Below, one piece after another: positions 30,325-59,463 of a DNA stretch of 64,000 bases. Below the pieces are notes generated by a model. The model was not told where the DNA came from and made no database searches. It worked only from the letters and a program-made list of their open reading frames with translations. Source of the DNA: an uncultured Anaerolineales bacterium (lineage in GTDB: Bacteria > Chloroflexota > Anaerolineae > Aggregatilineales > Aggregatilineaceae); contig CAKZOB010000042.1 of the NCBI GenBank assembly GCA_937135955.1, positions 62,001 to 126,000 of the forward strand. Direction: 5' to 3'. Position 1 is the stretch's first letter. Every line of letters starts with the position of its first letter. Both the position numbers and the translations under genes were made by a program.

Positions 30325-33300
30325 CTAAGCCCGTCGGCGCATACGCCAGCCGAGCGCCCCCGCGCCCAGCACCATCATGGTCAGGCCCAGGGCGACCCAT
30401 GGCCATATAGGACGCCCGGACTCCGCTGGCGGATACCCTGTGCCAGGCAATGCCTGCACCACCGAGACCTGCGCCGACGCGGTAGCCGTCCGCACCGCGC
30501 CATCGGGGCCGGTGCCCGTCAGGTCGGCGACATTCAGCAGCGTGCCATCCAACGGGCTGCGCAGTACCGTGGTGTAGATATAGGCGGTGAGCGTCTGCCC
30601 TGGGTCGAGGCGGGCGATGGTGAAGGTCACCGTCTGCCCTTCGATGGTATAGGTGCCGCCCTCGAACGTCACTCCGTCAATGCGCAACTCGTCCGGCACG
30701 CGATCAACGATCTGCACGTTGAGGCCGGGGCCGGTGCCCACATTGCTGATGGTCAGCACCCAGGTCAGGCGCTCGCCCGGCAGGCCCAATTGCCCCTTAT
30801 CTTCCAGCACGCCGATCTTGCTCAGCGCCGGGTCGAAGTACAGCACCTCCGGTCCGCCGCCGCCTGGTTCTTCGCCCTCGTGCACCACCGGCACGATGGT
30901 ACGATCGTCATCGGCGGGAGTCTCTGGGTCGTCGGTCGGCTCGTTGGGGAAGTTCGAGCCAGAGACCACACCCTGGTTCGCCACGCGCGTGACCGTCGGG
31001 TCGAGCGCCGGGTTGATACGCGCCCGGAAGGTGATGGTCACCGAGGCCCCCGGCGCAATGGCAGCGATTTGCACGGTCACGTTGGTGTCCTGTGTCACCA
31101 GCGCCGTCGGATCGGAAACCGTCACCGAGCCGACTACCAGTTGCAGGTGTGGCGGCAAGATGTCGCTGAAGACTACGTTCAGCGCGTCCGCATACCCGTA
31201 GTTGGTGATGGTGATGGTGTAGGTGAGCGTGTCGCCCGGGTTGGCCACGCCGTCTCCGTTCACGTCGCCGGTCAGTTCAGCCGTCTTGTACGCCTCGATC
31301 CACGGGATCAGGCCCAGCGGTGTGACGGTCGGATCGTCCACCGCGGGCGTATCGGGATCGTCGGTCGGCGTGTCGGGCACATTCGCCCCGCTGACCAGGC
31401 CCTGGTTGGCAACCGAGGTCACCCCTTCTGGCACTGGATTGGCGATGGTCACCCGGAAGTTGATAGTCACGCTCACGCCGGGCAGGATATCGCCGATGTT
31501 GACAGTCACCGCCGTGTCGCCCGGGGTATTGCCCTGGGGAATCACGCCCTGTGTCGTCGTCACCGAGCCAACTACCAGCGTCGTGTTGGCACCCGGCGTG
31601 TCGCTGAAGACCACCCCCTGGGCGACATCCCGGCCGGTGTTGGTGATGACGATGGTGTACTGCAACACGTCGCCCGGCGAGGGCACGCCGTCACCGCTGG
31701 GGCTGTCGTCGAAGAGGCGATCCGTCTTGGTGACCACCAGTTCAGGTTCTTCCCGCGGTCTACCCAGCGGGGTGACCGTCGGATCATCAGGCTGTGGCGT
31801 ATCCGGATCGTCGGTAGGCGTGTCGCTCACGTTATCGCCGATGACCAGCCCCTGATTGCTGACCGACGAAGTGTCGGGCGGCACCAGCGGCCTGTTGATC
31901 GTCACCCGGAAAACAACCGTGACCGTCTCACCCGCCGCCAGCGGGCCAAAGTTGACCACGACGCTGGTGTCGCCGGGCGTGTTGCCGCTGACGACCGTGC
32001 CGCCGGTCACCACCGACCCGACGACCAGCGTCGTATTGGCACCCGGTGTGTCGCTGAAGACGACGTTCTGCGCATCCACCGTGCCGATGTTGCTGATGGT
32101 GACCGTGTATTCGAGGGTGTCGCGCGGACTGGCGAACCCATCGCCGCCCACATCTACCACCAGCGCATCCACCTTCTGCGCCCGCAACACCGTACCACCG
32201 CCCAGCGGCGTGATCGTCGGATCGTTAGCAGCGGGCGTGTCGGGGTCGTCGGTGAGCACATCGCGGAAGTCGTCGCCCGCCACGCGGCCCTGGTTGGCCA
32301 CCTGCGTCGTGGTCTCCGGCACCAGCGGATCGTTGATCGTCACCTGGAAGGTGATCGTGACCGATCCTTCGGGCGGGACGGTGCCCACTTCGACCCGCAC
32401 GCTGCTATCGCCGGGCGCATTGCCCACGGTCACCGTGCCCTGTGTGGTGGTCACCGAGCCGACGACCAGCGTCGTGTTGGCACCCGGCGTGTCGGTGAAG
32501 ACCACGCCTGTCGCGCTCACCCCGCCCTGATTGGTGATGACCACTGTGTAGCGCAGAGTATCGCCCGGATCGGCCACACCGTTGCTGTTGGCATCATTCC
32601 ACAGCGCATCGGTCTTCTGCGCCTCGATGAGCGGGGCCAGGATCAGTGGCGTGATGGTGGGATCGCCGGGCTGCGCCGTGGCTGGATCGTCGGTTAGCTC
32701 CTCCGGGAAGTTGCCGCCGGACACTGTCCCCTGGTTCTGCACCCGGATCGTCGTCGGCGGCACCAGCGGGCTGTTGATCGTCACGCGGAAAGTGATCGTC
32801 ACGCTCCCGCCCGCGCCGGGGATCGTCCCCACGTTGACCGTCACCGACGTATTGCCCGCCGTGTTACCGCTGACAACCGTCCCCTGTGTGGTCGTCACCG
32901 AACCCACCACCAGCGTGGTATTCGCGCCCGGCGTATCGGTGAAGACCACACTGGCCGCATCACGATCGCCCCTGTTGGTGATGACGATGGTGTATTCGAG
33001 CGTATCGCCAGGGTTGGCCACCCCATCGCCGTTGGCGTCAATGGCCAGCGCGTCCGTCTTGGTGGCGCTGATATCCGGCGTGCCATCTACTGGCGTGACT
33101 GTCGGATCGTCCGGAGCGGTCGTGCCCGGGTCGTCGCTGGGCGTGTCGGGGATGTCATCGCCCTGAGCCAGGCCCTGGTTGGCCACCTGGAACACATCCA
33201 CCGGCAGCGACGGATTGACCGTCACGCGGAAGGTGATCGTCACCGTAGCGCCAGCGCCGGGGATTTCGCCCACCGCGACTACCACCGACGTATCGCCCGC

Positions 33301-36300
33301 TATGTTGCCGCTGACAACCGTCCCCTGCGTGGTCGTCACCGAACCCACCACCAGCGTGGTGTTCGCGCCCGGCGTGTCGCTGAAGACCACGTTGGCCACG
33401 CCCTGATCGCCCGTGTTGGTGATGACGATGGTGTACTCGATCACATCGCCGGGGTTGGCCACGCCGTTGCTGTTGGCGTCCACTACCAGCGCGTCCGCTT
33501 TGGTCAGGGATACGTCCGGCGCGGCAACATAGGGCGTCACCGTCGGATCGTCTGGGGCTGGCGTGTCCGGATCGTCGGTAGGCGTGTCCGTCGGCACTTC
33601 CTGCCCGTTGATCACGCCCTGATTGGCGATGGTCAGAGGCGCAGCGGGCAGCGGATTGTTGAGGGTCACGTCGAAGGTGACCGTAGCGCTGCCACCTCCA
33701 CCGGCGATGGTGCCGAGGGCCACTTCCACCGTCGTATCGCCGAACAGATTGCCCACCGTAACCGTGCCCTGCGTGGTCGTCACCGAGCCAGCGACCAGGG
33801 TGGTATTGGGGTCTGGCGTGTCGGTGAAGAATACATCGGAGGCGTCCTGGTCACCGGTGTTGGTGATGACGACCGTGTAGCGGATCGTATCGCCGGGGTT
33901 GACCTGCCCGTCATTGTTCACGTCCACGGCCAGCGTGTCGGCTTTGGTGGCAACGATGCGCGGCGCGGCCACTACCGGCGTATCCGTCGGATCGCCCGGC
34001 GTCGTCGTGTCGGGGTCATCGGTCAGCGCGTCGGGGATGTTCCCGCCGCTGACCGTGCCCTGGTTGCTCAGCAGATCCACGCCTGCGGGCAGCGGGTTGT
34101 TGACGGTCACGTCGAAGGTGATCGTCACCGTCCCGCCACCGCCGGGGATGGTGCCGATATCCACGGCCACCGTCGTATCGCCGGGCGCGTTGCCCGCCGT
34201 GACTGTGCCCTGTGTGGTGGTCACCGAGCCGACGACCAGGGTGGTGCTGACATCGGGCGTATCGCTGAAGGTCACACCGGCTGCGTCGCGGTCGCCGCTA
34301 CTGGTGATCACAACGGTGTAGCGGATCGTCTCGCCGGGGTTGACCTGCCCGTCGCTGTTCGCGTCTACGAAGAGCGCATCGGTCTTGGTGGCCGTCACTA
34401 CAGGCGTTGCCGTCACCGCCACCGTCTCAGTATCCTGGTTATTGGCCGGGTCGGTATCGCCGCCGCGCGAGCCGTCGTCGGCCACCTGCGCCGTGTTCTC
34501 GATCTGATCCACGCCTGCCGGCAACGGGTTATTAACCGTCACCGCGAACTGCACGGTCACCGGAGCAGCACCGGAGGCCAGCGCCGCCAGCGTATAGGTG
34601 CACAAGGTCCCGGCGGGAGACCCGTCGGCACAACTCCAGGTTGGCGTGCTGTTCGCTGCGTTGAAGGTCGTGTTGAGCGGCACCGTTTCTGTGATGGTGA
34701 TCGGGCCGGACGGGCCGGTGCCGATGTTGTCAATGACCAGGTTATAGATGACCACGCTGCCCGGCGTAAAAGGCCCCGTCGCCGCAGCCGTCTTGACCAG
34801 CCGCAGATTGGGGAAAACCAGGTTCAGTGTGTCGTCATCTGTAGCACCGGAGGCATCGCGCCCGCCTGTCGGCGCAGAGCTACCGCCGATGATGGTCGCG
34901 GTGTTGCTGATCGGGCTTTGGGCGGGGAGCAGCGTAGTGAGCAGCTTCGCCTGGAAGACCAGCGTCACCGCATTGCCCGCGCCGGGCAGCACCGTACCGC
35001 CGGTGTAGCGCACCGTCCCCGCCGGGCTGTTGCTGAAGGTGAAGCCCGCCGGAGCCGAGACATTGGCCGCGCTGCTCAAGTCCCATACCAGCGGATTGAG
35101 CACATCCTCGACCACCACGCCATAGGCCGGGCCGGTGCCGCTGTTGGTGACCACCAACTGTACACGCACCGTATCACCAGGGCTGGCCGGATTGTCCAGG
35201 AAGGTCTTGGCGATGGTCAGCACCGGCTCGACCACATCCACGCTCGCCGAGGCGCTCAGGTCGGGGCCAGTGGCATAGCGAAGTGTGGCCGTGTTGGTCA
35301 GGGTATCGCCGTTGGCGTTGGCGGGCAGATCGCGCAGCAACCCGACGACAGTGATCGTCAGCGTGTCGTTGGCGTTGGCGACATTGTCCGCCGTGTTGGT
35401 GATCGTCCCCAGCGTGAACGTCGCTGTATCGTTGAGGCCGTCGCCGAGCAGCGCATCAGTCAGCACACCCGCCGTGCCCACCAGCGCCGGGCTGAGGTTC
35501 GCCCCCTGCGCCGTCACGGACGCGCTCTGCAGTTCGATCACCCCCACCGCCGTCGCGGGCACGACATCGGTGATCACCACCCCGTTGATCTGTCCTTCCG
35601 GCAAAGTCACCGTGACGGTATAGGTCACTGTCTCGCCGATCGCCAGGTCGGGGTTGGCGGGGTTGTGCGCCGACGAGCCGGTCTCCGCCAGGCTGGTAGC
35701 GCTCACCACCTTGGCAATGGCGGGCGCCGCCGTCGAGAAGCTGGACTGCGCCGGACCCATCGTCCCGGCACGGCCCGTGCCGTCCGCCAGCGAGTTGTAG
35801 CTGCCGCTGACGGAGTTGGTGTAGGTCGTGTCCGGCTCAGCCGTGCTGGAGACGGCCACCTGATAGGTGATGGTGCAACTGCTGCCCAGGCTGAGCGCCG
35901 GGACGGAGAAGACGATAGCCGGGGCACCGGACGAATTCACCGTTGCGCCGCACGTCCCGCCGACTGTGCCATCGCTCACCCAGGTCAGGCCGGGCACAGG
36001 TAGCGTGTCGGTCAGGCTGATCTGATAGGCATCGGCCAATGACTGCGCCGTGTGGCTCACGGTGAGGGTCACCGTGAAGGTATCTCCCGCATCGAGCAGA
36101 CCGGCAGCGTTGTTGGCTTTGCTCACCGTCAGTTGCGGCTCCACCAGGTCAATGCCCACCGTCCCGCTGATCGTCCCGCCCGTGTGCTGGACGCTCGCCG
36201 TATTGAGGACGTTGATATCCTGGCCGGTGACCAGGCCCACATTGACCGGCGCATCCACCACGCGCGCCACCACGCGGAAGACGATGGTATCCTGCGCGTC

Positions 36301-39300
36301 TATCACGCCATCCGGCGTATTGGTGACATTCCCCAGCGTCCAGGTGACGCGATCGTTGCCATTGATCCCGTCGGTATCAGATGGTGTGCCCGCCGCACCA
36401 ACGCCGGGCAGCGCTGGCACCGCCGACAGATTGGCCCCGATGAACGTGATCTGCGACGAGACCACCTCGAACGCCGCGCCATCCGGGCCAGCGAGCGGCA
36501 GTTGGTCGGTCACCACGGTGTTTTCGGTCAGGCCCTCGGCGAAGGCTACCGTGAATTCGTAGGTGATCTGCTCGCCGATGGTGGCGTTGCCATCCGTCGG
36601 CGCGATGATGAGCTTGGTCAGTTCATTCTGGGTAACCGTTACCTGCGCTGAGGCGCTATCCTGATACGACCGTCCGCCCGTCGTCAGCGACGCCCACCCC
36701 AGGTTGCCGGTGTTGGTCAGCGTCGTGCCCGCAGGCGCGGTGACCGCGATGACCGCCTGAAACTCCACTTCGCAGCTCGATCCCTGCGGGAGCGTGTCCC
36801 ACACGACCGTCAGACCGGCCCCATACGGATCGGAATCATCAACGGTTGTGGGCAGTGTCGCGCACGAGCCAGAGACCGGACGCAGCGCGAAGTTGCTGGT
36901 GATGTAAGTCAGGTGTAGCGGCACCACATCGCGCAGGGTCACATTGAAAGCGTCGGCAGTCGAGGCAGCGGTGTGCTCCACGCGCAGGCGGAAGGTGATA
37001 ATATCGCCCGCGTCGCCCGCGTCCGGTGTCGCCGTCTTGGTGACGTTCAGCGCTGGCTCGACCAGGTCTACGCTCTCGGTATCCGAGACCGAATACGCGC
37101 CGTAAGTCACCTGCGCGGTGTTGACCGGCACATCGCCGTCGGCATTGGCCGCGACATCCAGCACCACGGCGACCACCTCGAACACGATCTGATCGTCCGC
37201 ATTCGAGACGCCGTCCGCCGCGTTGTTCACTGTGCCCAGCGCCCAGGTGACGCGGTCGTTGACAGTATCGGCATTTGTGTCGGTAGCCACGCCGGGCGTG
37301 CCTATCGCTGGCAGCGACGGGCCGGACAGATTGGCTCCCACCGCCACCACGCGCGAACTGACCACTCCCAGCACACTGCTACCCGTCGGGAGTTGATCGA
37401 AGGCGGTCGCCGTCGTCTGGCCTTCTGGCAGCGTCACCGTGAACTGATAGGTGATCTGCTCGCCGATGGTGTAGTCTGGCTGGGTCGGGCTGTGCGCATC
37501 GCTGCCATTGACCGGCGTCGAGGTGACGAGCTTATCAATCGTCAACGCGAAGACCGTCACTGTGGCCTGAGCCGTCCGCGCATAGGTGTTCGCTGAGCCG
37601 CCACAGCCGGACGTGTCACCGGTGCGTTCGCACGACAGGGGATTGTAAGGCGACTGCGGCGCGGTGACATTGCCCGGCAGACTCGTCCAGGTCTCCCTGG
37701 CCGTGTTGGTCAGCGCCTGATTGGGCTGCACGCCCGCACCGAGCGTGGCCTGGTAGGTCAACGTGCAACTCCCGCCCGACGCGAACGTATTCCATATAGC
37801 GGTCAGCGTTGGCGCGCTTTCGGTCAGGCTGGTGGGCGTCGTGGCACACACACCCGTCGCAAACGACCCCGGCACCAGGGTCATCCCTGCGGGGACGGTA
37901 TCGGTCAGCACCACGTTGAAGGCGTCCGGATTGGTGACTCCGCTGCCTTTGCTCACCACCAGGGTGAAGGTGATGGTATCGCCCGCGTCACCTGTCGTCG
38001 GCGAGGCCGTCTTGCTCACCGTCATAGATGGCTCGCGTACAGTGACGTTGGGCGCAGCAGCGTTGACGCTCCCCCCGCTCCAACTCCAGGTCATGGCGTT
38101 GTTGCGCGTCTGGCCAGAGCCAGTGCCCACGCGGTTGATGACCACCACCGTGTAGTCAACAGTGATCGTCTCTGGCGTCGCGGGGCTGCTGTTGCTGTTG
38201 GTGATCGTGCCGAAGTTGAGCGTCAGGCGGCGGCCCAGGTTGGCATCGCCGGTGCCTGCCGCGGTGATACTCGCCCCACTGAGCACCGCTGGAAAGCCGC
38301 CGGGCACCGAAGTGCTCACCCCCGTCGAAGCGGTGATGCTATCCACACTGACAAACGCCAAACCGGCATCCAGCTCATCGAATAAGGTCACGCTGCTACT
38401 GGTGCCTTCTGGCACAGTGATCACCACCCGATAGGTGATCTGCTCGCCAATGACGACGTTGTTGCCCGTTGTATGCGACTGATTCGTCCCGACAATAGAC
38501 TTGCTGGCTGTCGGACTGGCAATGGTCACGCTGGCGCTGTCGCTGCGCGTGGGGAAGTCGGTCGAGTCTCTCAGCGATGCCCAGTTCACGCTGGCCGTGT
38601 TGGTGATCACCGCGCGCGGCTCGACAGTAGAGCCAAGCGTGCACTGCACTGTGATCAGGGCGGTGTCGGTGCCATAGGGCGCGCCGCCGCCGGCGGGATT
38701 GCCATCGTTGCCCGCCAGGGGGTTGGTCAGCACCAGCCCCGCGCCGAACAAGTCGCCCGAATAGGCCAGCGCTGTCCCCGCGCCATTGGTGACGCTGCTC
38801 ACCGCGCAGCCGGTCAGCCCCGCCGGAACCGGATCGATCACCGTCACGTCGTAAGCGGGCGCGCCGCCGACATTTTCGACGGTGATCACATACACCACCT
38901 GGTCACCGGCGTCTGCACCGGTCAGGTTACCGTCCACGGGCAGGGTAGAAGGAGGCGGACTGATCGTGCCGTTGCCGTTGGTGGCGCTGACCCCCTTGGT
39001 GATCACCAGGTCTGGCGCGCGCACATAGAAGAAGATGCCCACGTCCGCCGTGAAGGTTGCGCCGGGTGTGTTGGCATAACCGGCCCGGAACAGGTTGGTG
39101 AGGTAGAGGTTGTCGGCGAACGGTTCGTCGTTGATCACGATGTCAATATCAACGGCGATGGTCTCCGGCGGCGTCTCGGACGAAAGGTCTTGCCAGTCAA
39201 TGCGCAACGAATTCTGCGCCGCGTTCACCGTGATCGAGGTTGGCGGCGTGCTGATGGTGCTCGTCGGCGCAAAGCGAATGTCTGTGCCGAAGGTTGTGTT

Positions 39301-40506
39301 GACAGTCGTCACGTCGAACACCGGCAGCGGGAAGAAATCCTCAAAGTAAATGGCCCGCGTGTCGCCAGACGGGATGTCCATCCGCAGGCGGAAGGTGACC
39401 ACGTCGCCGGGCATGAACTCGTAGGGCGGCGGATTGACAATGGTCTTGCTGACCTCCGGCGGCACAATGGCCGTCCCCGCCGCCGATCCTTCGCTACAGT
39501 TCGCCGCGCCCACCGTCAGCCCATATGTGGAGAGCACTGTGTTGGGCAGGTCGTCATTGGCGTGTACAGGCTGCCCGTTGAGATAGTACTGATCAATGGT
39601 GGCCGTGTAGCGCAGGATGATGGCCGTGCCCGCGGGGATGTTGCCTGTCACCGCACCGATGTTGTAGGTGATGGTCTGCGTTCCATCAGGGTTGTTAACC
39701 ACCGTGGGGGTGATGGCATAGCCCACCCCGCCCACCGTCAGCGACTGATGCGCGGCGAAAGTGACGCCATCTGGCAACGTATCTACCACGATCAGGCCGC
39801 TGTTGGTGCCATAGTCCGTCACCTGGAAGTTCAGCGTGTAGGTGAGCGTCGTCCCTGGAATGGTCTGCCCAGGGCTGACCCCTTTTTGCAAAGAGATATG
39901 CTCGGCTTCTACCGGCGCGTTGCGCGTCGAGAGGGGCTGCCACACGCCCAGATAGCGAGCCACAAAGCGCCCGCTGTTGATCACCGTCTCCCGACCGCAT
40001 GTCGCCTCGTTCAGAATATCGGTGATATAGACGGGGAAGCGGACTGTCACCTCCGGCCCGCCGATCACCCCGCTGGCTGAGGCGCAGGTCACCCCAACCG
40101 TCCCACCAGGGGTTGTCGTGGACGGTTGCGCCGTCACCGCGCAGCCCACCCCGCCCGTGATCGTCACCGGCCCGACGAACTGCACGCTGGGGGGCAACGT
40201 GTCACCAAAGGTCAGGTCGGTGATTGTCTGGCCATTGGCGATGTTCACGCTCAACACGTACTCATACGTCCAGGTCGGCCCTGGCGGACGTTCGCCTTCG
40301 GGAGCGGTATTGGTCTTTTCGAAGATGTAGAGAGTGGGAGTGATGGTGTCGGTGAAGGGGTCACCCACAATCGGGCCGTTTGCGCCAGTGGGCGTATCGC
40401 CAAACTCGTATACTGGGATCACCGTGACCGGCAGTGGCGTGCCCACCGTCGCCGTGGTGCTGATGGTGGCGCACATGTCCACCACCAGCGGCGGCCCGCC
40501 GGCCAC
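30325..40506 (-). CDS. Giant LPXTG-anchored DUF11 repeat surface protein (main part)
   Basis: The open frame gives 3393 residues, but its N-terminus continues, after a one-base shift at 40549-40552, into the signal-peptide-bearing fragment at 40894; the corrected protein would be about 3522 residues. It consists of tandem DUF11 (TIGR01451-like) beta-sandwich modules. The first part has about ten diverse modules with [18 protein letters not shown]-type starts. The last eight, encoded at about 30875-34410, are nearly identical and each begins with a DxNxDGxxNPGD-like loop. The C-terminus has LPGTG, a hydrophobic helix and RMRRRA, a sortase anchor. It is probably a cell-surface stalk or S-layer-associated protein. 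Very low Lys and Cys, high Thr/Val/Gly. Confidence 0.88.
30875..34410 (-). repeat. Eight tandem ~440-bp repeats within the DUF11 gene
   Basis: Each unit encodes about 145 residues in the order TKxDAL, calcium-loop-like DxNxDG, (E/R)YT(I/V)[27 protein letters not shown], GNxxGDTxV, VTITFRVT, NQGxVxG, TDDPDTxxPxDPTxTP. DNA identity between neighbouring units is visibly high in the [21 protein letters not shown] stretch, pointing to recent duplication or gene conversion. Unit six lacks a few residues in the TTTQ segment and the last unit is the most diverged. Confidence 0.85.
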
Positions 40507-45723: not shown

Positions 45724-45789
45724 ACCGCACAGACGCAGAGGTATACATTCCCTGTGTGCCTTCTCTGTGCCCTCTGTGTCCTCTGCGGT
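45724..45789. repeat. CTCTGCG-type intergenic repeat, copy 1
   Basis: ACCGCACAGACGCAGAGG at the left and CCTCTGTGTCCTCTGCGGT at the right form a loose inverted repeat. A shorter relative is at 52056-52082. Such 'CCTCTGCGTCTCTGCGGT' strings are widespread intergenic repeats in several phyla. No function is suggested. Confidence 0.55.
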
Positions 45790-49149: not shown

Positions 49150-51849
49150 TCACTGCGGAGCCACGCGGTACACGGCCACATCGCCGGACTGACAGACGGG
49201 CGTGAGCATCTGCTCGAACTTGGCCAGCCCCTGCTCATAGTCGCTCAGGCGGCCTGCATCGTCGCCCGCCATCTGCCGGATCATCGTCCGCTCGGCCCCG
49301 CCAACGACGATGTAATCTATACCATAGCGATCAATGATCTGCCAGGCACGCGCCCAGTCCTGCGTAGAGTATAGCTCCTCTATGTCGCTCGCCCGGTCGC
49401 GCCGCTGCCCGTTTTCGATACGCCAGTCGGTCACGCGCGGGTATGTCTCGCCACGCCATTGCCGTTCGTGATTCTGCCAGCCAATCAGGGTAGGGATGCC
49501 CGTCAGCCCGCTGAAACGGCTTTTGTGCGGTTCGTAGGCCCCGCCGGGCGCTTCGGCCAGCACCGCATCGCCGCCGGACTCTAGCTTCGCCAGGCACTGA
49601 ATCGCCGCGTATTCGTCCGCCGGCACCATGGTCGGCGTGCCGTCCAGCGCCAGCGCCGCCAGGCGAGGACACTCGGTCGTGATGCCCGTCTCCGCGGCCA
49701 TCTGCCGACACTCCTCAGCGCGCGACTTCGTCGTCAGCCGACCGGTATCTACCAGCGCCCGCGCTCGCGTTGCCAGCACGGGATAGGCCAGGCCCGCCGC
49801 GAAAAGCAGCACGAACGCCGCCGCATACGCGCCGCGCAGAGCAACTCCCCAGCCGCGCGGGCGTTCGCTCGCCGTCCACCTGCCCAGCACCGACCACACC
49901 GCAAACCCCGCCGCCAGGCTGAACAAAATCCAGCCCTGATAGTAGAGCTTGAAGACGGTGTTGATGCGCACGGCGAAATTGTCGCGCAGGTAGACGAAAT
50001 CGGGCGCGACGGTCAACACGGCTCCCGCCCCCACCAGCAACAGCGTAAAGCCAGTCGCAGGGGTGTAGGGTGCGCGCGTCGGCGCGCTGACGGGGCGGGC
50101 GAACAGCCGCCCAACGACCAGGAAGACCAGCACCAGACACCATATTTCTGTCGGCAGCCCGATCAGACGGCGCGCGAGGATGTCCGGCACCAGGTCGCCC
50201 AGGCTGTCCCCCGCCGGAACGCTGCCGAAGACCGCTCCGCGCAGTTCGCCGCCCCAGGCAACCATGCCCAGCCCGATCACCGCCAGGACGAACACCGAGA
50301 GCAACGCCGTCACCGCCAGCAGGCCCGCTTCCCAGTGGAAACGCCGTCCGGCCCGCCGCCACTCAAGCAGCACAAAGCCGGTCAACAAGATCAGGAACGG
50401 GCCAAATTGCAAGAAGAACTGCGACCAGCGCGTCGGATAGATCACGTTGGGCAACACACCGCCCGCCTGCGAGGTGAACGAAACCAGCCAGGACAGGTAG
50501 AAGATCAGCGTCAGCGCACCGATGATCGCCGTGAAGCGGACAATCTCCAGCACATCGCGGCGCGACAGTATTCCCGCCCTGTTCCGTATCAACCGCCGCA
50601 GCGTCTCCGCGCCCACCAGCAGCGGCAGGTAGATGGCATCCCACGAGTTGACGAAGACCATGCCGCCCACCCAGATCGCGTAAAGCGGGTAGCCCCACCA
50701 GGCCAGTTCGCGCCCGCCGAGCACCAGCGCCAGCGCCAGCCCCACCGCCAGCACGGCGAAGGGCAACGCCAGCACGTGCGGGTGCAGGTCGGCCAGCACA
50801 AAGCTGAAATTGGGGAATTCGCTGATCGGCTGGATCGGGTGCGGCGCGCCGTTCAGGTCGCGGTCGTGCACCACGCGGCTATAGCGCCAGCCCAGCCCAT
50901 AGGTGAACTCGAAGCGATCCAGCGGCAACCGCGCCTCTTCCCAGTTGGGCACGCCGTCGCCGTCGTCGTCAGTGGGGACAGCGCGCACGCCCGCTTCGGT
51001 CACGACCTGCGTTGTACCGGCGCGGTCCTCCACATCCCAGAAGTCGAAGTAAGCCGCATTGACCAGACCTGGCGTGTATCCCCGCCAGGGGAACTCGATC
51101 AGGGCCGTGCCCAGGTTCCCCATCAGGATCAGCAAGCACATCGCCAGGAAGCCCGCCGTCAGGGCGTGCACACGTCGCCGCGCCCCCTCCGCCTGAACCA
51201 GGTTGTAGACCACGCCCAGCGCACCGATGCCCGTCAGCGCGAAGATCAGCGCGATGGTGAGGTTGAAGGCCACGCCACTGCTCACGCCGCTCAGGTCGGC
51301 CAGCATGGCGATCAGCACATAGCCGAAGTAGTAGTAGCTGATGGCGTACCCGCTCAGCCAGGCGTCGCGCGGGGGGAAGGTCTCGCTGGCGCGGATGGCG
51401 TTGACGAACATGATCTCCATCGGCTTTTCGGTGCTGTACATCTCCGGGTTGTGCGCCCGCACCGTCGCCCAGCCGAAGAACAGCACAGCGAAGAGCACCT
51501 CCACCACGACGATCAGCGGCCAGTGCGCCCGCAACCAGGGGCGCAGCGCCGGACGGTCGTCCCAGCGCCACACGGCGACCGCGCTCAGCATCAACACCAG
51601 CAGCCAGGCCAGGGTCATGCTGCCCGTTGTGTTGCGCAGCAGGCCCAGGCTGGCCAGAAACCAGAACAGAAAACCGGTCAGCATCAGGCCCGCCGCGCGC
51701 GCCAGCGAGTAGCCGCGGTCGGGCAAGCCGCCCGCCAGCCGCCAGAGCAACGGCCAGGCTGCCGCTCCCGCCAGCGTCACCAGCAGCCACCAGCGCAGCA
51801 GAAAGCCGCCTTCGCGGCCCAGCCAGTCGGTGATCAGCCCAACGTCCAT
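49150..51849 (-). CDS. DUF2298 ('YYY') membrane protein
   Basis: An 899-residue polytopic protein of the DUF2298/TIGR03662 family. Conserved parts are EKPMEIMFVNAIRASETFPP followed by DAWLSGYAISYYYFGYV (about 140-180), LADLHPHVLALPFAVLAVG (about 340) and VNSWDAIYLPL (about 400). The C-terminal extracytoplasmic domain has YGIDYIVVGGAERTM and ends GDVAVYRVAPQ. Sequence and order show it is a paralogue of the C-terminal half of the next gene upstream. The biochemical activity is unknown; a polyprenyl-phosphate-sugar transferase is a common suggestion. A ribosome site AAGAGA precedes the ATG. Confidence 0.87.
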   Translation of the reverse strand: MDVGLITDWLGREGGFLLRWWLLVTLAGAAAWPLLWRLAGGLPDRGYSLARAAGLMLTGFLFWFLASLGLLRNTTGSMTLAWLLVLMLSAVAVWRWDDRPALRPWLRAHWPLIVVVEVLFAVLFFGWATVRAHNPEMYSTEKPMEIMFVNAIRASETFPPRDAWLSGYAISYYYFGYVLIAMLADLSGVSSGVAFNLTIALIFALTGIGALGVVYNLVQAEGARRRVHALTAGFLAMCLLILMGNLGTALIEFPWRGYTPGLVNAAYFDFWDVEDRAGTTQVVTEAGVRAVPTDDDGDGVPNWEEARLPLDRFEFTYGLGWRYSRVVHDRDLNGAPHPIQPISEFPNFSFVLADLHPHVLALPFAVLAVGLALALVLGGRELAWWGYPLYAIWVGGMVFVNSWDAIYLPLLVGAETLRRLIRNRAGILSRRDVLEIVRFTAIIGALTLIFYLSWLVSFTSQAGGVLPNVIYPTRWSQFFLQFGPFLILLTGFVLLEWRRAGRRFHWEAGLLAVTALLSVFVLAVIGLGMVAWGGELRGAVFGSVPAGDSLGDLVPDILARRLIGLPTEIWCLVLVFLVVGRLFARPVSAPTRAPYTPATGFTLLLVGAGAVLTVAPDFVYLRDNFAVRINTVFKLYYQGWILFSLAAGFAVWSVLGRWTASERPRGWGVALRGAYAAAFVLLFAAGLAYPVLATRARALVDTGRLTTKSRAEECRQMAAETGITTECPRLAALALDGTPTMVPADEYAAIQCLAKLESGGDAVLAEAPGGAYEPHKSRFSGLTGIPTLIGWQNHERQWRGETYPRVTDWRIENGQRRDRASDIEELYSTQDWARAWQIIDRYGIDYIVVGGAERTMIRQMAGDDAGRLSDYEQGLAKFEQMLTPVCQSGDVAVYRVAPQ

Positions 51850-51906: not shown

Positions 51907-52011
51907 GTTGACTTCACCCCCCCACTCGGCGCTGACGCGCCTCGTTGCCCCCTCTCCATGCATGGAGAGGGGGCAAGGCCGAGCGTAGCGAGGCCAGGGG
52001 GTGAGGTCAAC
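51907..52011. repeat. Palindromic repeat, family B, intergenic copy
   Basis: A 105-bp element with terminal GTTGACTTCACCC and GGGTGAGGTCAAC arms, two inner stems and a perfect centre CCCCCTCTCCATGCATGGAG. Its reverse strand is closely similar to the element inside the neighbouring giant gene (57139-57232). It occupies the gap between the two DUF2298 genes. Confidence 0.85.
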
Positions 52012-52055: not shown

Positions 52056-52082
52056 CCTCTGCGCCCTCTGCGTCTCTGCGGT
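52056..52082. repeat. CTCTGCG-type repeat, copy 2
   Basis: CCTCTGCGCCCTCTGCGTC followed by TCTGCGGT, related to the longer copy at 45724-45789. It lies 11 bases before the stop of the giant DUF2298 gene. Confidence 0.5.
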
Positions 52083-52092
52083 AGCTCTACTC

Positions 52093-55000
52093 TCATCTCG
52101 CCTGCACCACCGGCTCGCCCAGCGTGGTTCCCGGCACCACGCGGTATATCTTGTCGGCATAGCGCTGCTCGACAGGGCACAGCGCTACATCGCGGATGCT
52201 CACGTCCAGGCAGCGGTCGGCGCTGTATTCCAGTGTCAGCAGGCCCATCGCCACCATCGTATCGAACTTGGCCAGCCCCTCGGCGTGCCCTGCCGTGGGG
52301 ACGCCGGTCGCTGGATCGCGCTGAATGTCACCATAGAAAGCGCGCTCCAGCGTCCCCACGACGATGTACTCAATGTCGTAATGATCGATCAGACGCAGCG
52401 CCGCGCGGATGCCTTCCATCCCGCCCAGCGAATAGAACGCAGCGGCGTTGTTCTCGCGCGTTTGCACCAGCAGGTTCATGTCTGGCAGGCTGTGCTGCTG
52501 AATCTGATGGAAGCGCCAGCCGAGCATGGTCGGCAAACCAGTGTAGATGCTGATCCGCCCGCCCCAATGATATTCGGAGGGGAACAGGTGCGCTTCCATC
52601 ACCACCGGCGTGCCGTCTACGTGCTCCTGGAACCAGCGAATCAGGTCGTAGTCGCCGTCCAGCCGGAAGACCAGGCCGGACTCGCCGTGCACGGCGTATT
52701 TCATGTACTCCATGCCATCCAGGGTCAGCGGCGTCTCGTCTTTGTTGAAACGATCCAGGGCGCGCGCATGGGTCGCCAGGATCGGGTAGAGCGCCGCGAC
52801 CGATAGCAGCACGGCCAACCCACCCTGCCACAGCGCGCGCAGGGCCGGATGCCAGCGCCAGGTACTGCGCAGCAGCCACGCCAGGCTGACCCCGCCGACG
52901 ATACTCAACATGAACCAGACTTGCAAGTAGAACTTGAAGACGGTGTTCTGGCGGCCAATGTCGCCATCGAGCACCAGCAGTTCCACACCCAGCGAGATCG
53001 CCAGCGCCAGCACGGTCAGCGCGTAGACGGCCCGCAGCAGCGCGCTCTGCCGTGGCAGGAAGAAGAGCAGCGTCGCCCAGGCGATCAACGGCACGACCAG
53101 TTGCGCCACCGCCGCCTCGCGCACGCCGTAGACGACCCCGCCCAGCGTCACCGCCAGCAGCCCGACGCCCACCACGACGACCGGCACGGCCAGCCCTTCC
53201 AGCGCCTGCACGCGCACCGCTCGCAGCCAGCGCGCCGTCTGCCAGACCAGGAACGAGATCACCAGGAAGATGAACGTCCCGTGTATGTACAGATAGGCCC
53301 ACAGCGGGGTCGTCTCGTCCTCCCACGGCTTGACCGACTGATAGGCGGTGGCGAAATACGAGGTGAAGGGCAGCCCCACGACAAAGGTCAGGGCTACGAA
53401 GAGCACCACCCGCCCCATCCAGGCCCACAGCAGACGGCGATCGGGTCGTGTGTGCGCCACGATCAGCGCCAATATGTACAGCGCGACGACGACGGCCAGC
53501 GCCACCCCCGCCCACAGCAAGGCGCTGCCCAGGCCCAGGCTGGGGACAATCGGCATTTCGCCAGGGCGCAAGCCACGTTCGACCTGCTGACCCGCCCGGA
53601 TGCGCTGCACAGCGTAGAAACCGATGCGCGCCGCCAGCGCCACCGGCACTACTAACAGCACGACGCGCAGCTCGCGGGCGCGGCCCGGACGAACCCAGTC
53701 CCACAGGCGTCGGGCGAAGGCCGGCGGCGACAGGTCGCGCCGCGACCGGCGCGCGCCCAGCCAGGCGACGAAGGTCAACCCGGCAACGCTCAACAGCAGG
53801 TAGGTGATCCAGTCCCACGAGTTGGTCGGGCGCAGCACGCCCACCGCCAGCGCCCCCAGCCCCAGCCCCAAACCGGCCTCCCACCAGGTGCGCAGCCCGT
53901 GCCCCGCCCCGATGATCTCCGCCAGCAGCCAGACGATCACCAGCAGCGTCACCGGAAAGGCGATCATATGCGCGTGCAGATCGCCATAGAGGAAGGTGAA
54001 ATAGGGCATCTCGGCGATGGCCCCTTTGCCGGCGTTGTTGGGCAGTTCGCTGATGATGCGCGTCGGCCCCCAGTACCAGCGATGCGTGTGCATGGGCAGA
54101 GGTTGTCCGTCCAGCACCTTGCCCAGCCCACTGAAGAACGCGCCGATCTGCCTGCGCAGGTTGCCCAGTTCGTATTCCCACAGACGCAGCAATGGCGGAT
54201 GGTTGGCGTAGTCCTCGATGTACTCGTCCACGCGGCGCTGTGTGAGCATGGTCACGATCAGAGTATCGCTTGCACTGGACGGCTCGCGCCCGTAGCGATC
54301 GCGGAATTTGCGACTCTCCTCGGCGTAGAACTGCTCATAGAGCCGTTCGCGCTGCGCTTCGATCTCCTGCTGCCGCACCTGATGGTAGAGCGGCTGCTGT
54401 CCCCAGCCGTCCAGCTTGGCGACATTGGTCACGAAGACATGCAGCGTCCCCAGATTGCCCAGGATCACGGCCAGCGCCAGCGCCAGCAAACCGGCCAGCC
54501 AGGCGTTGCCACGCGGGGCACGCACTTCCTCGAACGGCACTTCGCGCAACGGCTCCTCGCTGGCCGCTGCTTCTTCTGCCTCAAACGTATCGTTGTACAC
54601 GCGCCAGTCGGTCGCACCCTCGATCTGCCCAGGCCGCACCGAGCGCGCCCGCACCCAGTTGTAGGCGATGCTGAACACGCCCACACCGGTCATGGCGAAC
54701 AGGGTAGGGATGATCAGGTTGTAGGCCACCGAGGGCACGATCCCCAGCAACTTGACCGGCGCGCCGACGATCACATAGCCGAAGTAGTAGTAGTTGATGT
54801 AGCCGCCGGAAAACCACGGATCGAGCGGCGGGAAGACTGTGCTGCGCAGCACCGCGTTGAAGTAGGCGAAATCCATCGGCTTCTCGCCGCCGAAACTGCC
54901 ATGCCACAGGTCGGGGTTGGTCAGCCGGACGCCCAGGAAAGCCAGGAACAGCGCCAGCGTCAACGCCTCCATGGCCACCAGGAAGCGCCAGTTGGCCCGC

Positions 55001-58000
55001 ACATAGCGCCGGAACTGCGCCCGTCGCCGCCAGATCGCCACGACGCTGAGCGCCGCCAACGCCACCAGCAGCACGGCGATGCCAAGCCGCGACCAGGCGC
55101 GCAGCTTCAGCGTCCCCAGCGCCCAGGCTGCCCAGGCTACGATCACCCAGGCCGCGATCTTCGCCGCGGGATAGGCGCGGTCGGGCAAGGCGGGTAGCGC
55201 AACGAAGAGCAACGGCCACGCTGCCCACCCGGCCAGCACCATCAGCGCCCACCAGACGATCACCGCCAGAACCTGACTACGGTTGAGCAGCGAGTCGCGG
55301 TCGAAGAGGTCGCGCCAGGTGCCGCCCTCGCGCTGCACTTCCCACGTCTCTTTGTCGAAGTGCAACATGGTCGGGGCCTTGGTCGCTTCCTCGGCGCGCC
55401 AGGTCACCACGCCCACCGGCTCCGGATCGGCCACATAGCCGGGCATAGCCGAGCGCACCGGGCGGATGGTGACGCTCTCCAGCAGCGCCCGCACCTGCTC
55501 CGACGAATAGGTGTCCGTCTTGCGAAAGACCAGCACGATCGGATGATCGTAGACGTGAAAGGCTTCCTCAGCTTCCCAGTGCTCGTTGACCCAATCCGGC
55601 AGATCGTCGAGCGGCGTCACCTGGTCGCGGATGCGGAAGGGGCCGAGCGTCGGCGGCGACTCGAATTGCCGCACCAGCTCAAACCCCAGCCGTCCATCGA
55701 ACAGCGCCTCGTAATAGGTCAGCGTCATCGGCCAGCGCCAGGGGATGCGCGACAGCGAATCGTAAAAGCGGTTGCTGGTGATGACCAGGTAATCGGCCTG
55801 ATCCAGGGCGGTCATCATGGCTGTGATCTTGTCGTCGGTGTCCTCCGACACCATCCACAGCTTGATGCCCTGGTAGTAGCCGCCATACATATTCAGCGCC
55901 GGGCAATCGTGCGCCGACAACCCCGACGGTAGATCGTCGCGGTAAACCACATCGCCTGGCAGCGGGCAGACTGTCCACGGCACCGGATCGTCCCAATCGC
56001 CCTCCCAGGCGATGACCGGCCCGGAGGTGTAGATCGGGTCGAGCGCTTCCACCGTCAGGGTGAGCGTCTGCGGCTGCCCCAGCGCATCCGCCCGGCGCAC
56101 GCGCAACGGCGGATCGAAGATCACCTTCCGCGGCAGGCCAAGCGGGTCAGCACCAGCGTTGAAATCGCCGCGCACCTCCGCCGAGACCTGCGTCCCGTCG
56201 GGCGCGGTCAGGGTGAAGCGGACGGCTTCCTCGCCATCGTCGCGCAGCGGATCGCCCAGGTGCGAGATGTCGAGCTGCCGGATTACCCCATCTATGGGGA
56301 CGGTCACCTGCAGGGTATCGCTGCCGCCTACGTTCCAGTGTGTCGGCGTCTCCGGAATGTCATCCCCGTGCCCGCGGAGCAAGGGCGACGCTTCAAAATC
56401 GAGATCGAACGAAAACGGCATCCCGTCGGACACCAGCGTCACTTCCACCATGGCATTGCTGAACACCGGGCCGTTATCGTCCACCACCTCGCGCACCAGA
56501 GTCACTGCCCCCTGCAGCGCGGTGACTTCCAGCGCGTAGGACGCCGCGGGATCGGTCGTCGGCGCCAGCAACACCTGATCCACCGGCTCGACGGTGTAGG
56601 CCAGCCCATAGGGAGAAACGTCCGCCCCGAAATCGGCATAGAGCGTGCGCTCGAAAAGCAGTTGCCGCCCCAACGCGGGATCGTTCCGGTACAGGCGCAC
56701 GCGCACGGTTTCCGGCTCCGGCGTCTGATGCGGATCAAAGAGCCGGTTGAGGGTGATGCGCGTCAGGTAGGCGGCGGCGGAGACAGTGAACGTCGCCTCG
56801 ATGCTCTCGCCCTCGGCCAGCGGGGTGATGGCAGGCGGCGCAGCCACATAGCCCCGCCCAATGTTGATCAGTTGCCGCGTCCCGTCGTCGGCTTCCACCC
56901 ACAGGCCAAAGTCGCCGGGCACTGTCTCCTGGAACCAGCGCGACGCCGCCACGCGCGTCAGTTGGTGCCGGTGAATGTTGTGGAAGGCGAAGCCATACAA
57001 CGCTGTGTAGCCCAGCACCACCGCCAGCAACGCCCACGAACCGCCGATCGCCAGTCGCCGCAGCGCAGGACGGGACAGGCGGTCTTCGTGAGGGACAGCT
57101 AAAGAGGCTGGCGAGGCCGGCTCTGAGGCCAGTTGATTGACCTCACCCCCGGCCTCGCTTCGCGCGGCTTCCCCCCTCTCCGCGTCGGAGAGGGGGCCAC
57201 GAGGCGCGTTAGCGCCGAGTCGGGGTGAGGTAAAGTTGGGATCAGCCTCTTGTTCCAGATATTCCCCAATGCCCGTCCGCCCCTGAACCATAAATGGAGG
57301 GAGGGCGACGAGGCGCGTCAGCGCCGAGCGGGGATGAGGTAAGCCAGGCGCGGCCAGATTGTCAGACAGACTCGCCACCCTCCCGGCCCACCCGACGTGG
57401 CGCGCTGTGCTCAGCAGCGCCAACAGCGCCCACGCGCCAAACAGCGCCAGCGCCGGGTAGATGGGCAGGAAGTAGCGCATGGTCGTCACCCAGCGACCGC
57501 CCAGCCAACCAAAGAGCACCAGCACCCACACGAAAGGCAGCGCGTGCCGCGTCCAGCCTCGCCGGGCGCGGACGATGGACAGTCCCGCCCAGGCCCAGCC
57601 CGCCCAGGCCACCAGGCCCAGCGGCAGGCCAAAGCCCCACAGAACGATATTGCGCCAGGGATAGAAATAGGGAATGCGGCTGGCCCACTGATGATCGGGC
57701 GGCCCGTCCCAGTCGCCGGAGGTCAGGTGCGCCGCTTCGGCGATGTCTTCGCGCCAGCCGGGGTTGAACTTCAGCCCGAAGATGCCCGGCCCCAGAAAAG
57801 CGTGCGGCTGCAACAGCCGGAAGACGACGAACGAGATCACCGCCGCCGTCAGCAGGCCACTGAGCGCCACGCCGATCACTCGCGAGCGCAGCGTCCGGTG
57901 CAGAGCGGCATCCAGCGCGGGCAAGGCCCGCAACCCCGCCGCAACCGCGATCACCAGGGCCAGCGGCGCAACGTTGATACGGCTGGCCACCGCCCCGCCC

Positions 58001-59463
58001 AGCGCCACGCCGAACAGGGCGTAGTCGGTCAATTCGCTGGCATCGAAGACGAGCAGCAGCGTCGCGGTCGTCGCCACGAAGAGCGCCGCCCATTGCGCCA
58101 GCCCGCCCCAGATGATGCCGATCACCAGCAGCGCCCACAGTGCGCCCACTGCCGCGCCGATGCTCCCCACGCCCTGGCCGCGCACCCGACCGCGCGCCCG
58201 CGCCCGCGCTGCCCTGGCTGCGACGTAGATCGCCAGCGCGATCACCGCATAGACCAGGCTCGCCGCGCCCTGCGCCAGCAGATCGGCGGTCAGGGTGAAG
58301 TCGCGCCGCGCTGCCAGGTCAGTCAGCCCCCATCCCACCAGGTGAAGGAGCGAGGCGATGACACCGGCCAGCGCGGGCAACCACTCGCGCCCTGTGCGAA
58401 TGCTCAGCGTCCACAGGATGGCGTAGGCCAGCAGCGCGAGGCCGCCCAGCGCCAGCAGGCCCAGGATGGGGTAGCCATGCGCGCCCGTTTCCCACATCAC
58501 ACCGCCGAACCATACCAGCGTGTAAAGCAGCGGCAGCGGCCCCTGTCGCCAGCCCGCCCCGTCCAGGGCGCGGACAGCGCAGTAAAGCGCCAGCGTCACC
58601 CAAAAGGTGGTGAAGGCGTCCACCGTCCAGAAGTGCGACTGCTGCACCGGAAAGGCCGCCACGCCGTAGAGCGCCGCCGCCAGCAGCCCCGTCCAGGGGC
58701 CGTAGAGCCGCCGTCCGATCAGGAAGATCACCAGCACGGTCAACCAATCGGCCACGGCAGAGACCGTCCGCCCGGCCAGTTGTGCGCCGCCGTACTCTTC
58801 CCAGTGACGGGTTGGCGCGTAATCCACCACGCCGTCGCCGTCGAAGGCCTGTTGCAGAGCCAGGTAATCGCGCGAGAGTTGCGAGTGCGCCGCGCCTACC
58901 GCGTGCACAGTGAACAGGGGAAACTCGCCGTAGACGTACAGCCCCTTGCCGATGTTGTTGGGGTTCAGCGGCGAACACTCCGCGTCGAAATAGCCGCCGC
59001 GCCCCGCCCCCCAGACGGAGTCCGCCGCCGGATAGCGCTGCTCACAGCGGGCGCGGTGCGCCTCTTGTTCGGCAAGCGAGCGATCGGTGAACTGCAACGG
59101 CCCGCCGAGCAGGCTCACCACATCGGTCAGGAAGCGCTCGTCGGGGTGCAGGTGTGTGTAATCGTCCCAGTTCTGCGCGTCGAAACGCAACCAGGCCGCC
59201 ACGGCCAGCACCACCACCAGGAGAATATAGACCAGTCCCTCCCGCCGAGCAGTCCACGGCCAGCGCGGACGCGCAGCCCTGGCGCTGGCAGGCGCTTCTC
59301 CCTGGCTTCTCTCTGGCGCGAGTGTCTCGGCGGGCAGCGCCTCGACTGTCGGCACGGGAGGCCATTCTTGCGGTGGATCGGGCATGGGGCCGGGTGCAGC
59401 ACTCTCCCCGGCCAGCTCTGGTTCGTGAGTCTCAGGATCGGGATACACAGTCTCGTCGGTCAA
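52093..59463 (-). CDS. GT-C module fused to DUF2298, with in-frame repeat insertions
   Basis: A 2456-residue protein. A cytoplasmic Pro-rich N-terminus (about 1-70) leads to a GT-C-like membrane domain (about 75-830) with the acidic loop HLHPDERFLTDVV near residue 110. A large extracytoplasmic beta-rich region (about 850-1370) precedes a complete DUF2298 domain (about 1390-2456) with GGEKPMDFAYFNAVLRST, then FSGGYINYYYFGYVIVG, and the end domain YDIEYIVVGTLERAF. Residues ~708-775 are encoded by palindromic repeats (57139-57232 and 57288-57341) that keep the frame open. The start is TTG at 59463; a GTG at residue 6 and an ATG at residue 27 are alternatives. Likely a bifunctional lipid-linked-sugar enzyme, unproven. 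Confidence 0.85.
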   Translation of the reverse strand: MTDETVYPDPETHEPELAGESAAPGPMPDPPQEWPPVPTVEALPAETLAPERSQGEAPASARAARPRWPWTARREGLVYILLVVVLAVAAWLRFDAQNWDDYTHLHPDERFLTDVVSLLGGPLQFTDRSLAEQEAHRARCEQRYPAADSVWGAGRGGYFDAECSPLNPNNIGKGLYVYGEFPLFTVHAVGAAHSQLSRDYLALQQAFDGDGVVDYAPTRHWEEYGGAQLAGRTVSAVADWLTVLVIFLIGRRLYGPWTGLLAAALYGVAAFPVQQSHFWTVDAFTTFWVTLALYCAVRALDGAGWRQGPLPLLYTLVWFGGVMWETGAHGYPILGLLALGGLALLAYAILWTLSIRTGREWLPALAGVIASLLHLVGWGLTDLAARRDFTLTADLLAQGAASLVYAVIALAIYVAARAARARARGRVRGQGVGSIGAAVGALWALLVIGIIWGGLAQWAALFVATTATLLLVFDASELTDYALFGVALGGAVASRINVAPLALVIAVAAGLRALPALDAALHRTLRSRVIGVALSGLLTAAVISFVVFRLLQPHAFLGPGIFGLKFNPGWREDIAEAAHLTSGDWDGPPDHQWASRIPYFYPWRNIVLWGFGLPLGLVAWAGWAWAGLSIVRARRGWTRHALPFVWVLVLFGWLGGRWVTTMRYFLPIYPALALFGAWALLALLSTARHVGWAGRVASLSDNLAAPGLPHPRSALTRLVALPPFMVQGRTGIGEYLEQEADPNFTSPRLGANAPRGPLSDAERGEAARSEAGGEVNQLASEPASPASLAVPHEDRLSRPALRRLAIGGSWALLAVVLGYTALYGFAFHNIHRHQLTRVAASRWFQETVPGDFGLWVEADDGTRQLINIGRGYVAAPPAITPLAEGESIEATFTVSAAAYLTRITLNRLFDPHQTPEPETVRVRLYRNDPALGRQLLFERTLYADFGADVSPYGLAYTVEPVDQVLLAPTTDPAASYALEVTALQGAVTLVREVVDDNGPVFSNAMVEVTLVSDGMPFSFDLDFEASPLLRGHGDDIPETPTHWNVGGSDTLQVTVPIDGVIRQLDISHLGDPLRDDGEEAVRFTLTAPDGTQVSAEVRGDFNAGADPLGLPRKVIFDPPLRVRRADALGQPQTLTLTVEALDPIYTSGPVIAWEGDWDDPVPWTVCPLPGDVVYRDDLPSGLSAHDCPALNMYGGYYQGIKLWMVSEDTDDKITAMMTALDQADYLVITSNRFYDSLSRIPWRWPMTLTYYEALFDGRLGFELVRQFESPPTLGPFRIRDQVTPLDDLPDWVNEHWEAEEAFHVYDHPIVLVFRKTDTYSSEQVRALLESVTIRPVRSAMPGYVADPEPVGVVTWRAEEATKAPTMLHFDKETWEVQREGGTWRDLFDRDSLLNRSQVLAVIVWWALMVLAGWAAWPLLFVALPALPDRAYPAAKIAAWVIVAWAAWALGTLKLRAWSRLGIAVLLVALAALSVVAIWRRRAQFRRYVRANWRFLVAMEALTLALFLAFLGVRLTNPDLWHGSFGGEKPMDFAYFNAVLRSTVFPPLDPWFSGGYINYYYFGYVIVGAPVKLLGIVPSVAYNLIIPTLFAMTGVGVFSIAYNWVRARSVRPGQIEGATDWRVYNDTFEAEEAAASEEPLREVPFEEVRAPRGNAWLAGLLALALAVILGNLGTLHVFVTNVAKLDGWGQQPLYHQVRQQEIEAQRERLYEQFYAEESRKFRDRYGREPSSASDTLIVTMLTQRRVDEYIEDYANHPPLLRLWEYELGNLRRQIGAFFSGLGKVLDGQPLPMHTHRWYWGPTRIISELPNNAGKGAIAEMPYFTFLYGDLHAHMIAFPVTLLVIVWLLAEIIGAGHGLRTWWEAGLGLGLGALAVGVLRPTNSWDWITYLLLSVAGLTFVAWLGARRSRRDLSPPAFARRLWDWVRPGRARELRVVLLVVPVALAARIGFYAVQRIRAGQQVERGLRPGEMPIVPSLGLGSALLWAGVALAVVVALYILALIVAHTRPDRRLLWAWMGRVVLFVALTFVVGLPFTSYFATAYQSVKPWEDETTPLWAYLYIHGTFIFLVISFLVWQTARWLRAVRVQALEGLAVPVVVVGVGLLAVTLGGVVYGVREAAVAQLVVPLIAWATLLFFLPRQSALLRAVYALTVLALAISLGVELLVLDGDIGRQNTVFKFYLQVWFMLSIVGGVSLAWLLRSTWRWHPALRALWQGGLAVLLSVAALYPILATHARALDRFNKDETPLTLDGMEYMKYAVHGESGLVFRLDGDYDLIRWFQEHVDGTPVVMEAHLFPSEYHWGGRISIYTGLPTMLGWRFHQIQQHSLPDMNLLVQTRENNAAAFYSLGGMEGIRAALRLIDHYDIEYIVVGTLERAFYGDIQRDPATGVPTAGHAEGLAKFDTMVAMGLLTLEYSADRCLDVSIRDVALCPVEQRYADKIYRVVPGTTLGEPVVQAR
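57139..57232 (-). repeat. Palindromic repeat, family B, inside the coding sequence
   Basis: 94 bp with terminal TACCTCACCCC/GGGGGTGAGGTC arms and a central GGCCCCCTCTCCGACGCGGA hairpin, about 80 percent similar by eye to the intergenic element at 51907-52011. It lies within codons about 744-775 and is read as TSPRLGANAPRGPLSDAERG and the following residues GEAARSEAGGEVN, with no stop. Confidence 0.85.
57288..57341 (-). repeat. Palindromic repeat, family B, half copy inside the coding sequence
   Basis: The left half of the same element (TACCTCATCCCCGCTCGGCG... to CCTCCATTTATGG) encodes LPHPRSALTRLVALPPFM at about residues 708-725. It breaks off at the element's centre. It is 55 bases upstream, in gene order, of the complete copy. 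Confidence 0.8.

Follow-up and report, generated by a model that had tools for sequence, protein, structure and literature searches.

Palindromic repeats in a membrane-protein gene

The window, the whole 64,000-nucleotide stretch of DNA that was analysed, belongs to genome G000, that of an Anaerolineae-type Chloroflexota, and contains a gene for a large polytopic membrane protein that holds one full and one half copy of a palindromic repeat, with a further copy in the adjacent spacer (Table 1). As the preliminary description had claimed, both genic copies are located in frame and are free of stop codons, and the intergenic copy is present. Both genic copies are on the gene strand. The core of the full copy spans 57140–57231, the longer interval in Table 1 also counting the TTT/CAA ends. 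Folding of the full copy and of the intergenic copy was far beyond that of dinucleotide shuffles on both strands (z −4.8 to −9.5; 0 of 200 shuffles equal), and the half-copy stretch (57270–57345) showed no such excess (z −0.8 and −1.4). The spacer between the two genic copies was not unique and matched the flanks of other family copies by blastn. Judged by these matches, the insert is a composite of half copy, module and full copy.

Table 1. Features of the window, and sites at which the palindrome is read in frame within genes of the genus (sites 1–9)
Feature	Position or genome	Strand	Description
Host gene	52096–59463	−	2456 aa, polytopic membrane protein; DUF2298 / Chlor_Arch_YYY domain in the C-terminal half
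Full in-gene palindrome	57137–57234	−	TTTACCTCACCCC...GGGGTGAGGTCAA, reads FTSPRLGANAPRGPLSDAERGEAARSEAGGEV; residues 744–775; core length 92
Linking module, 54 bp	57235–57288	−	Resembles flank module of other family copies (blastn)
Half palindrome copy	57289–57342	−	Reads LPHPRSALTRLVALPPFM; residues 708–725
Intergenic palindrome copy	51907–52011	+	Between both Chlor_Arch_YYY genes
Neighbouring gene	49153–51849		Chlor_Arch_YYY domain, as in host gene
Other repeat	52056–52081, 45725–45787		Intergenic copies of CCTCTGCGYCCTCTGCGTCTCTGCGG repeat
Very long protein gene	30328–40506		441–444-bp direct repeats at 31.1–34.5 kb
Site 1	G000		Window-gene linker; related palindrome in G002
Site 2	G003		Second site in window-gene orthologue
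Site 3	G000, contig C42:237743–237841 (L136:10595–10687)		In frame in 308-aa intein of DnaE (DNA polymerase III alpha subunit)
Site 4	G002		L178-type loop, full copy; palindrome-like remnants in G000, G001, G003 and G004; absent in six other-genus genomes
Site 5	G004 (G004:C97), G002		Gene upstream of L178-type-loop gene; 7 orthologues skip element
Site 6	G002:C271		Element absent from orthologues in 7 of 7 genomes
Site 7	G002:C54		Other genus members carry other repeats in same loop
Site 8	G001:C68		Absent at that place in G000, sole orthologue seen
Site 9	G001:C201, G003:C57		One common site

The linker that holds these copies comprises 114 residues compared with ~10 in G003 and G004, giving a net insert of ~100 residues between two membrane helices rather than the 50–70 estimated earlier. 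The length of the full copy is not a multiple of three, and it is in the TSP reading; the frame of the gene is intact because other inserted DNA compensates. An AlphaFold2 model of residues 480–900 with 11 relatives was poor (mean pLDDT 48.9, pTM 0.28), and therefore no structural claim was drawn from it.

The preliminary description had proposed an alignment of residues 708–775 with orthologues, and had regarded a homologous stretch in repeat-free orthologues as evidence against insertion. A counterpart of residues ~690–800 was absent from 11 of 12 family orthologues, while the twelfth, from the sister species G002, had its own shorter, related palindrome at the same place, in frame and in the LPHP phase. 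The eight orthologues without contig-end cuts were single frames of 2331–2481 aa spanning the insert site, and the codon score was positive on either side of the full copy (+240 and +696). Both observations argue against a spurious long frame, with the element lying at the junction of two genes or signalling a pseudogene; GC-rich genomes do yield long chance frames, with many antisense ones in the window, but this explanation is extremely improbable. The same applies to a misassembly that would have placed a repeat in the gene. The assembly is a draft of 93 contigs, repeats cause misjoins, and a G002 copy at a contig end (described below) may be one; however, the window gene is located inside a 293-kb contig and the G002 genome, a separate record, has its related palindrome in the same place and frame.

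Distribution of the palindrome family

The family was searched for in G000 and the other four genus members (G001–G004) with the arm CTCGGCGCTNNCGCGCCTCG, allowing up to two mismatches and using the reversed pattern as control. This genome-wide search, and the count of in-gene copies given below, had been suggested in the preliminary description. There were 145 matches in G000 against two for the control, and the five genus members gave 145, 423, 96, 174 and 88. Matches in 36 relatives outside the genus were near background (0–9, controls 0–6). The palindrome family is thus restricted to the genus among the relatives searched.

The core begins with TTKACCTCACCCC and finishes with GGGGTGAGGTMAA, forming the terminal inverted repeats expected of a MITE. 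It is mostly ~90–97 bp long with nested hairpins, or ~98 bp including the TTK/MAA ends, and is larger with flank modules; copies of ~60–63 bp are also present and are probably shortened forms. Flanks recur among copies: in a sample of 60 non-genic copies, 111 flanks were tested and 82 of them matched three or more further copies on the same side, compared with 0 of 40 shuffled flanks matching other copies. Flanks of genic copies matched those of other copies in six of nine cases tested, or seven if one 15-base match is counted.

Location relative to genes was determined for 497 kb of G000 (the window and 80 further stretches), in which our own codon-score gene calls gave 428 genes and 84.8 % coding sequence. 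This sample held 109 arm matches, of which 103 had two or fewer mismatches, corresponding to 103 of the 145 found genome-wide. Five in-gene matches that had three mismatches and lacked the ends were regarded as chance and removed. The 104 credible matches comprised 99 intergenic, one C-terminal and four internal to genes, two of these in the window gene. Four of 104 is far below the expectation from the coding proportion (binomial P=4e-76), and the palindrome avoids genes. A candidate genic copy in contig C6 of G000 (L175) had a non-coding downstream side (score −5.1) and was counted as C-terminal read-through.

In-frame copies within genes

Across the five species, at least 11 of 182 full copies were in-frame genic copies, at nine sites in eight genes (Table 1). 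A two-sided, stop-free codon test passed ten of the 182; the eleventh, the DnaE intein copy of G000, scored below the cut-off and was included manually. The genic copies were found mainly through peptide queries in three frames and a DnaE query, among the matches listed, with other frames under-sampled. Seven of the eight host genes encode polytopic membrane proteins, with 5–29 predicted membrane segments by a crude hydropathy count, and the eighth is DnaE, in which the copy is located in an intein. No predicted membrane segment was overlapped by the element in the 11 membrane rows tabulated.

The intein was present without the element in G001, G003, G007, G011 and G013, and no intein occupied the DnaE position in G004, G005, G006, G010 and G017. 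The G000 intein also lacks most of the central region found in G001, G007 and G013. Eight of the nine genic sites were found in one or two species only; among the orthologues compared, none without the element was seen for site 9. Pairing and family similarity of the genic copies equalled those of other copies and, on these features, most genic copies look recent.

Exaptation offers a different account of the same sites, in which arginine-rich loops are useful to glycosyltransferase-like membrane proteins and were selected. It would agree with the L178-type loop, which is palindrome-like throughout the five genus members and in none of the six other-genus genomes, and with the host genes, six of eight having at least six predicted membrane segments compared with 13.5 % of coding length (P=1.3e-4). 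However, the narrow species range of eight sites, the young appearance of the genic copies, the free variation of loop sequences between species and the presence of other repeat families in one loop in other species all count against selection, and we consider exaptation very unlikely.

Length and phase of genic copies

Core length was divisible by three (3n) in 10 of the 11 in-frame genic copies found. By site, this length was seen for eight of nine genic sites compared with 34 of the 132 long copies classed as non-genic (Fisher P=2.6e-4), a count that leaves an intein copy of G002 out of both the 11 and the 132 and keeps two frameshifted candidates among the non-genic copies (all three described below). 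Restriction to the two length classes covered by the peptide queries left the bias in place (P=1.5e-3), and in the DNA-selected G000 sample it depends on two full copies, one in favour and one against. The bias is not accounted for by openness alone, since 3n+2 copies are commoner (70) and their TSP phase is open in 130 of 140 readings, yet a single in-frame site uses them.

Among 3n copies, the open strand readings were 37 of 68 for the LPHP phase, 24 of 68 for YLTP and 4 of 68 for TSP; the TSP phase runs into a TGA at the distal end, and stops are frequent in the YLTP phase. The 3n genic copies have the reading LPHP...G[G/D]EV whichever strand is read, and both orientations share one entry and exit phase. 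Antisense placement was seen in three genic copies, and one copy exits as GDEV, not GGEV.

The open frame of the intergenic window copy, singled out in the preliminary description, proved unremarkable, as 48 long intergenic G000 copies had a mean of 3.6 of 6 frames open compared with 4.0 in mononucleotide shuffles. Comparison of DNA-selected 91- and 92-bp copies with random substitution from the consensus gave no clear excess of open frames (92-bp copies, best phase open in 15 of 15, a level that 37 of 400 simulations also reached). For the 92-bp copies of the whole set, 42 of 43 had an open TSP phase (a level reached in 0 of 200 simulations), but many of these had been fetched with that peptide; the other strand was open in 38 of 43 (3 of 200 simulations), again partly in peptide-fetched copies.

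Genic copies that may shift or break the frame

When any frame was permitted and stops were allowed, 12 of 182 copies had an open coding frame reaching both edges on one strand, a test that is blind to insertions that disrupted genes long ago. It had been suggested that the idea of coding repeats would fail if all other in-gene copies were disruptive; ten of these 12 continue in frame without a stop. The other two (L369 in G001:C115 and L379 in G001:C323) are weaker, have a length of 3n+2 and look like frameshifted genic insertions from their sequences. The ratio of in-frame to frameshifted copies is not a survival rate, because genes that were disrupted degenerate and readily escape notice.

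A further copy is located in the DnaE intein of G002, at the same place as that of G000. It is 97 bp long and contains an in-frame TAG, four bases short of the contig end; either dnaE is broken in G002 or the contig end is wrong.

Ends, target site and possible mover

A search for an enzyme sharing the ends of the palindrome covered the Y1_Tnp family. The arm, within three mismatches, was absent from all eight Y1_Tnp loci of the five genomes, and on these grounds a tyrosine transposase was provisionally set aside as the mover, related palindromes being present near two loci. One of these, a degenerate copy, is ~0.3 kb from a weak Y1 match in L223 and the other is a related palindrome in L222; both may be chance occurrences in copy-rich genomes. 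At site 8, comparison of G001:C68 with G000 pointed to GGCGG on both sides of the element, a possible 5-bp target duplication; this is a single case and too little to name a mechanism.

Probable origin and survival of genic copies

We consider it highly probable that a genus-specific palindromic repeat produces rare frame-neutral insertions, which survive in tolerant places; this estimate was lowered slightly on account of the in-frame stop in G002 and the frameshifted candidates. The reading is based on the repeat family, the absence of the element from orthologues, the avoidance of genes, the length and phase bias, and the positions between membrane segments or in an intein. The palindrome, taken as non-autonomous, would spread mainly between genes with an enzyme supplied in trans, and the composite structure seen in several genic inserts suggests that the palindrome may move as one unit with its modules. 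A copy landing in a gene would survive only under three conditions: a length that leaves the host frame intact, a reading phase free of stops from the element's own ends, and a site at which the protein can accommodate additional residues. The two copies and the linking module of the window gene would in this way have lengthened the inter-helix linker by ~100 residues. From their sequences, we infer that the genic inserts are translated and tolerated without function.

A bolder form of this reading, which we regard as unlikely, is that the 3n subfamily is a gene-invading form, both strands encoding similar peptides (LPHP...APSP..ERG...GGEV) in one phase and hence frame-neutral either way. Membrane loops and the self-removing intein would then be safe harbours, with the loops now kept by some hosts.

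Comparison with known repeat systems

Rickettsia palindromic elements (RPEs; Ogata et al. 2000, 2002) are described as palindromes of ~100–150 bp inserted in frame in unrelated genes; nearly half of those in R. conorii are genic, and they are said to encode a conserved peptide (PMC10969869, PMC2229807). The analogy drawn in the preliminary description fits the genic copies, in that a palindromic repeat of like size is inserted in frame in unrelated genes with the host frame otherwise intact. It does not extend to the family as a whole, whose copies are overwhelmingly intergenic, with 4 of 104 G000 arm matches genic compared with nearly half in R. conorii. The palindrome also differs from RPEs in phylum and in being used in both orientations with the same entry and exit phase. 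The comparison is one of descriptions; in the 36 relatives outside the genus, the arm was at about background level.

REPs are described as 20–40 bp long with a GTAG/CGTC tag, found mainly in tandem and convergent spacers and in a few cases within ORFs, among them genes for DNA replication and repair (PMC3733652). The repeat family resembles REPs in being palindromic and mostly intergenic with a few copies in ORFs, but has a core of ~92 bp. Judged on this core and on the eight arm-free Y1_Tnp loci, it is not a member of the REP/RAYT group. The intergenic G000 copies were located in 49 tandem, 36 divergent and 8 convergent spacers, with six unassigned; they are thus common in divergent and rare in convergent spacers, unlike REPs as reported.

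The terminal inverted repeats of TIRYT tyrosine transposases are reported to have the motif GGGGWSAS (PMC3733652), which the palindrome ends GGGGTGAG fit, although the arm is missing from the Y1_Tnp loci. ERIC, YPAL and other MITEs are described as short mobile repeats that carry open frames and have become fused to ORFs (PMC2759123, PMC2229807); likened by description, they differ in taxon, and the Y1_Tnp search yielded no parent insertion sequence for the palindrome here. Inverted repeats read as protein are also described for nematomorph mitochondria (Nematomorpha; PMC6649704), where, in contrast, the repeats are mitochondrial, long and perfect and are located inside genes.

Literature searches found no report of such elements in Chloroflexi/Anaerolineae, in membrane loops or in inteins. 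By analogy with the Rickettsia elements, this looks like a case of interspersed palindromes becoming protein independently, outside Rickettsia, in Chloroflexota. It hints at conditions for survival, namely a 3n length, a phase set by the terminal stops of the element and a landing place between helices or in an intein, and five related species with differing insertion states open the process to comparative testing.

Two other interspersed repeats appear to be coded in a loop of a glycosyltransferase-like membrane protein of G000 (L271, contig C73), where G002 carries the palindrome. These are GTAGGGGCGTATCGCAATAC, read as VGAYRNTPLR, and a CTCTGCG repeat, read as SPQRRGERRGK...SASSASLRF.
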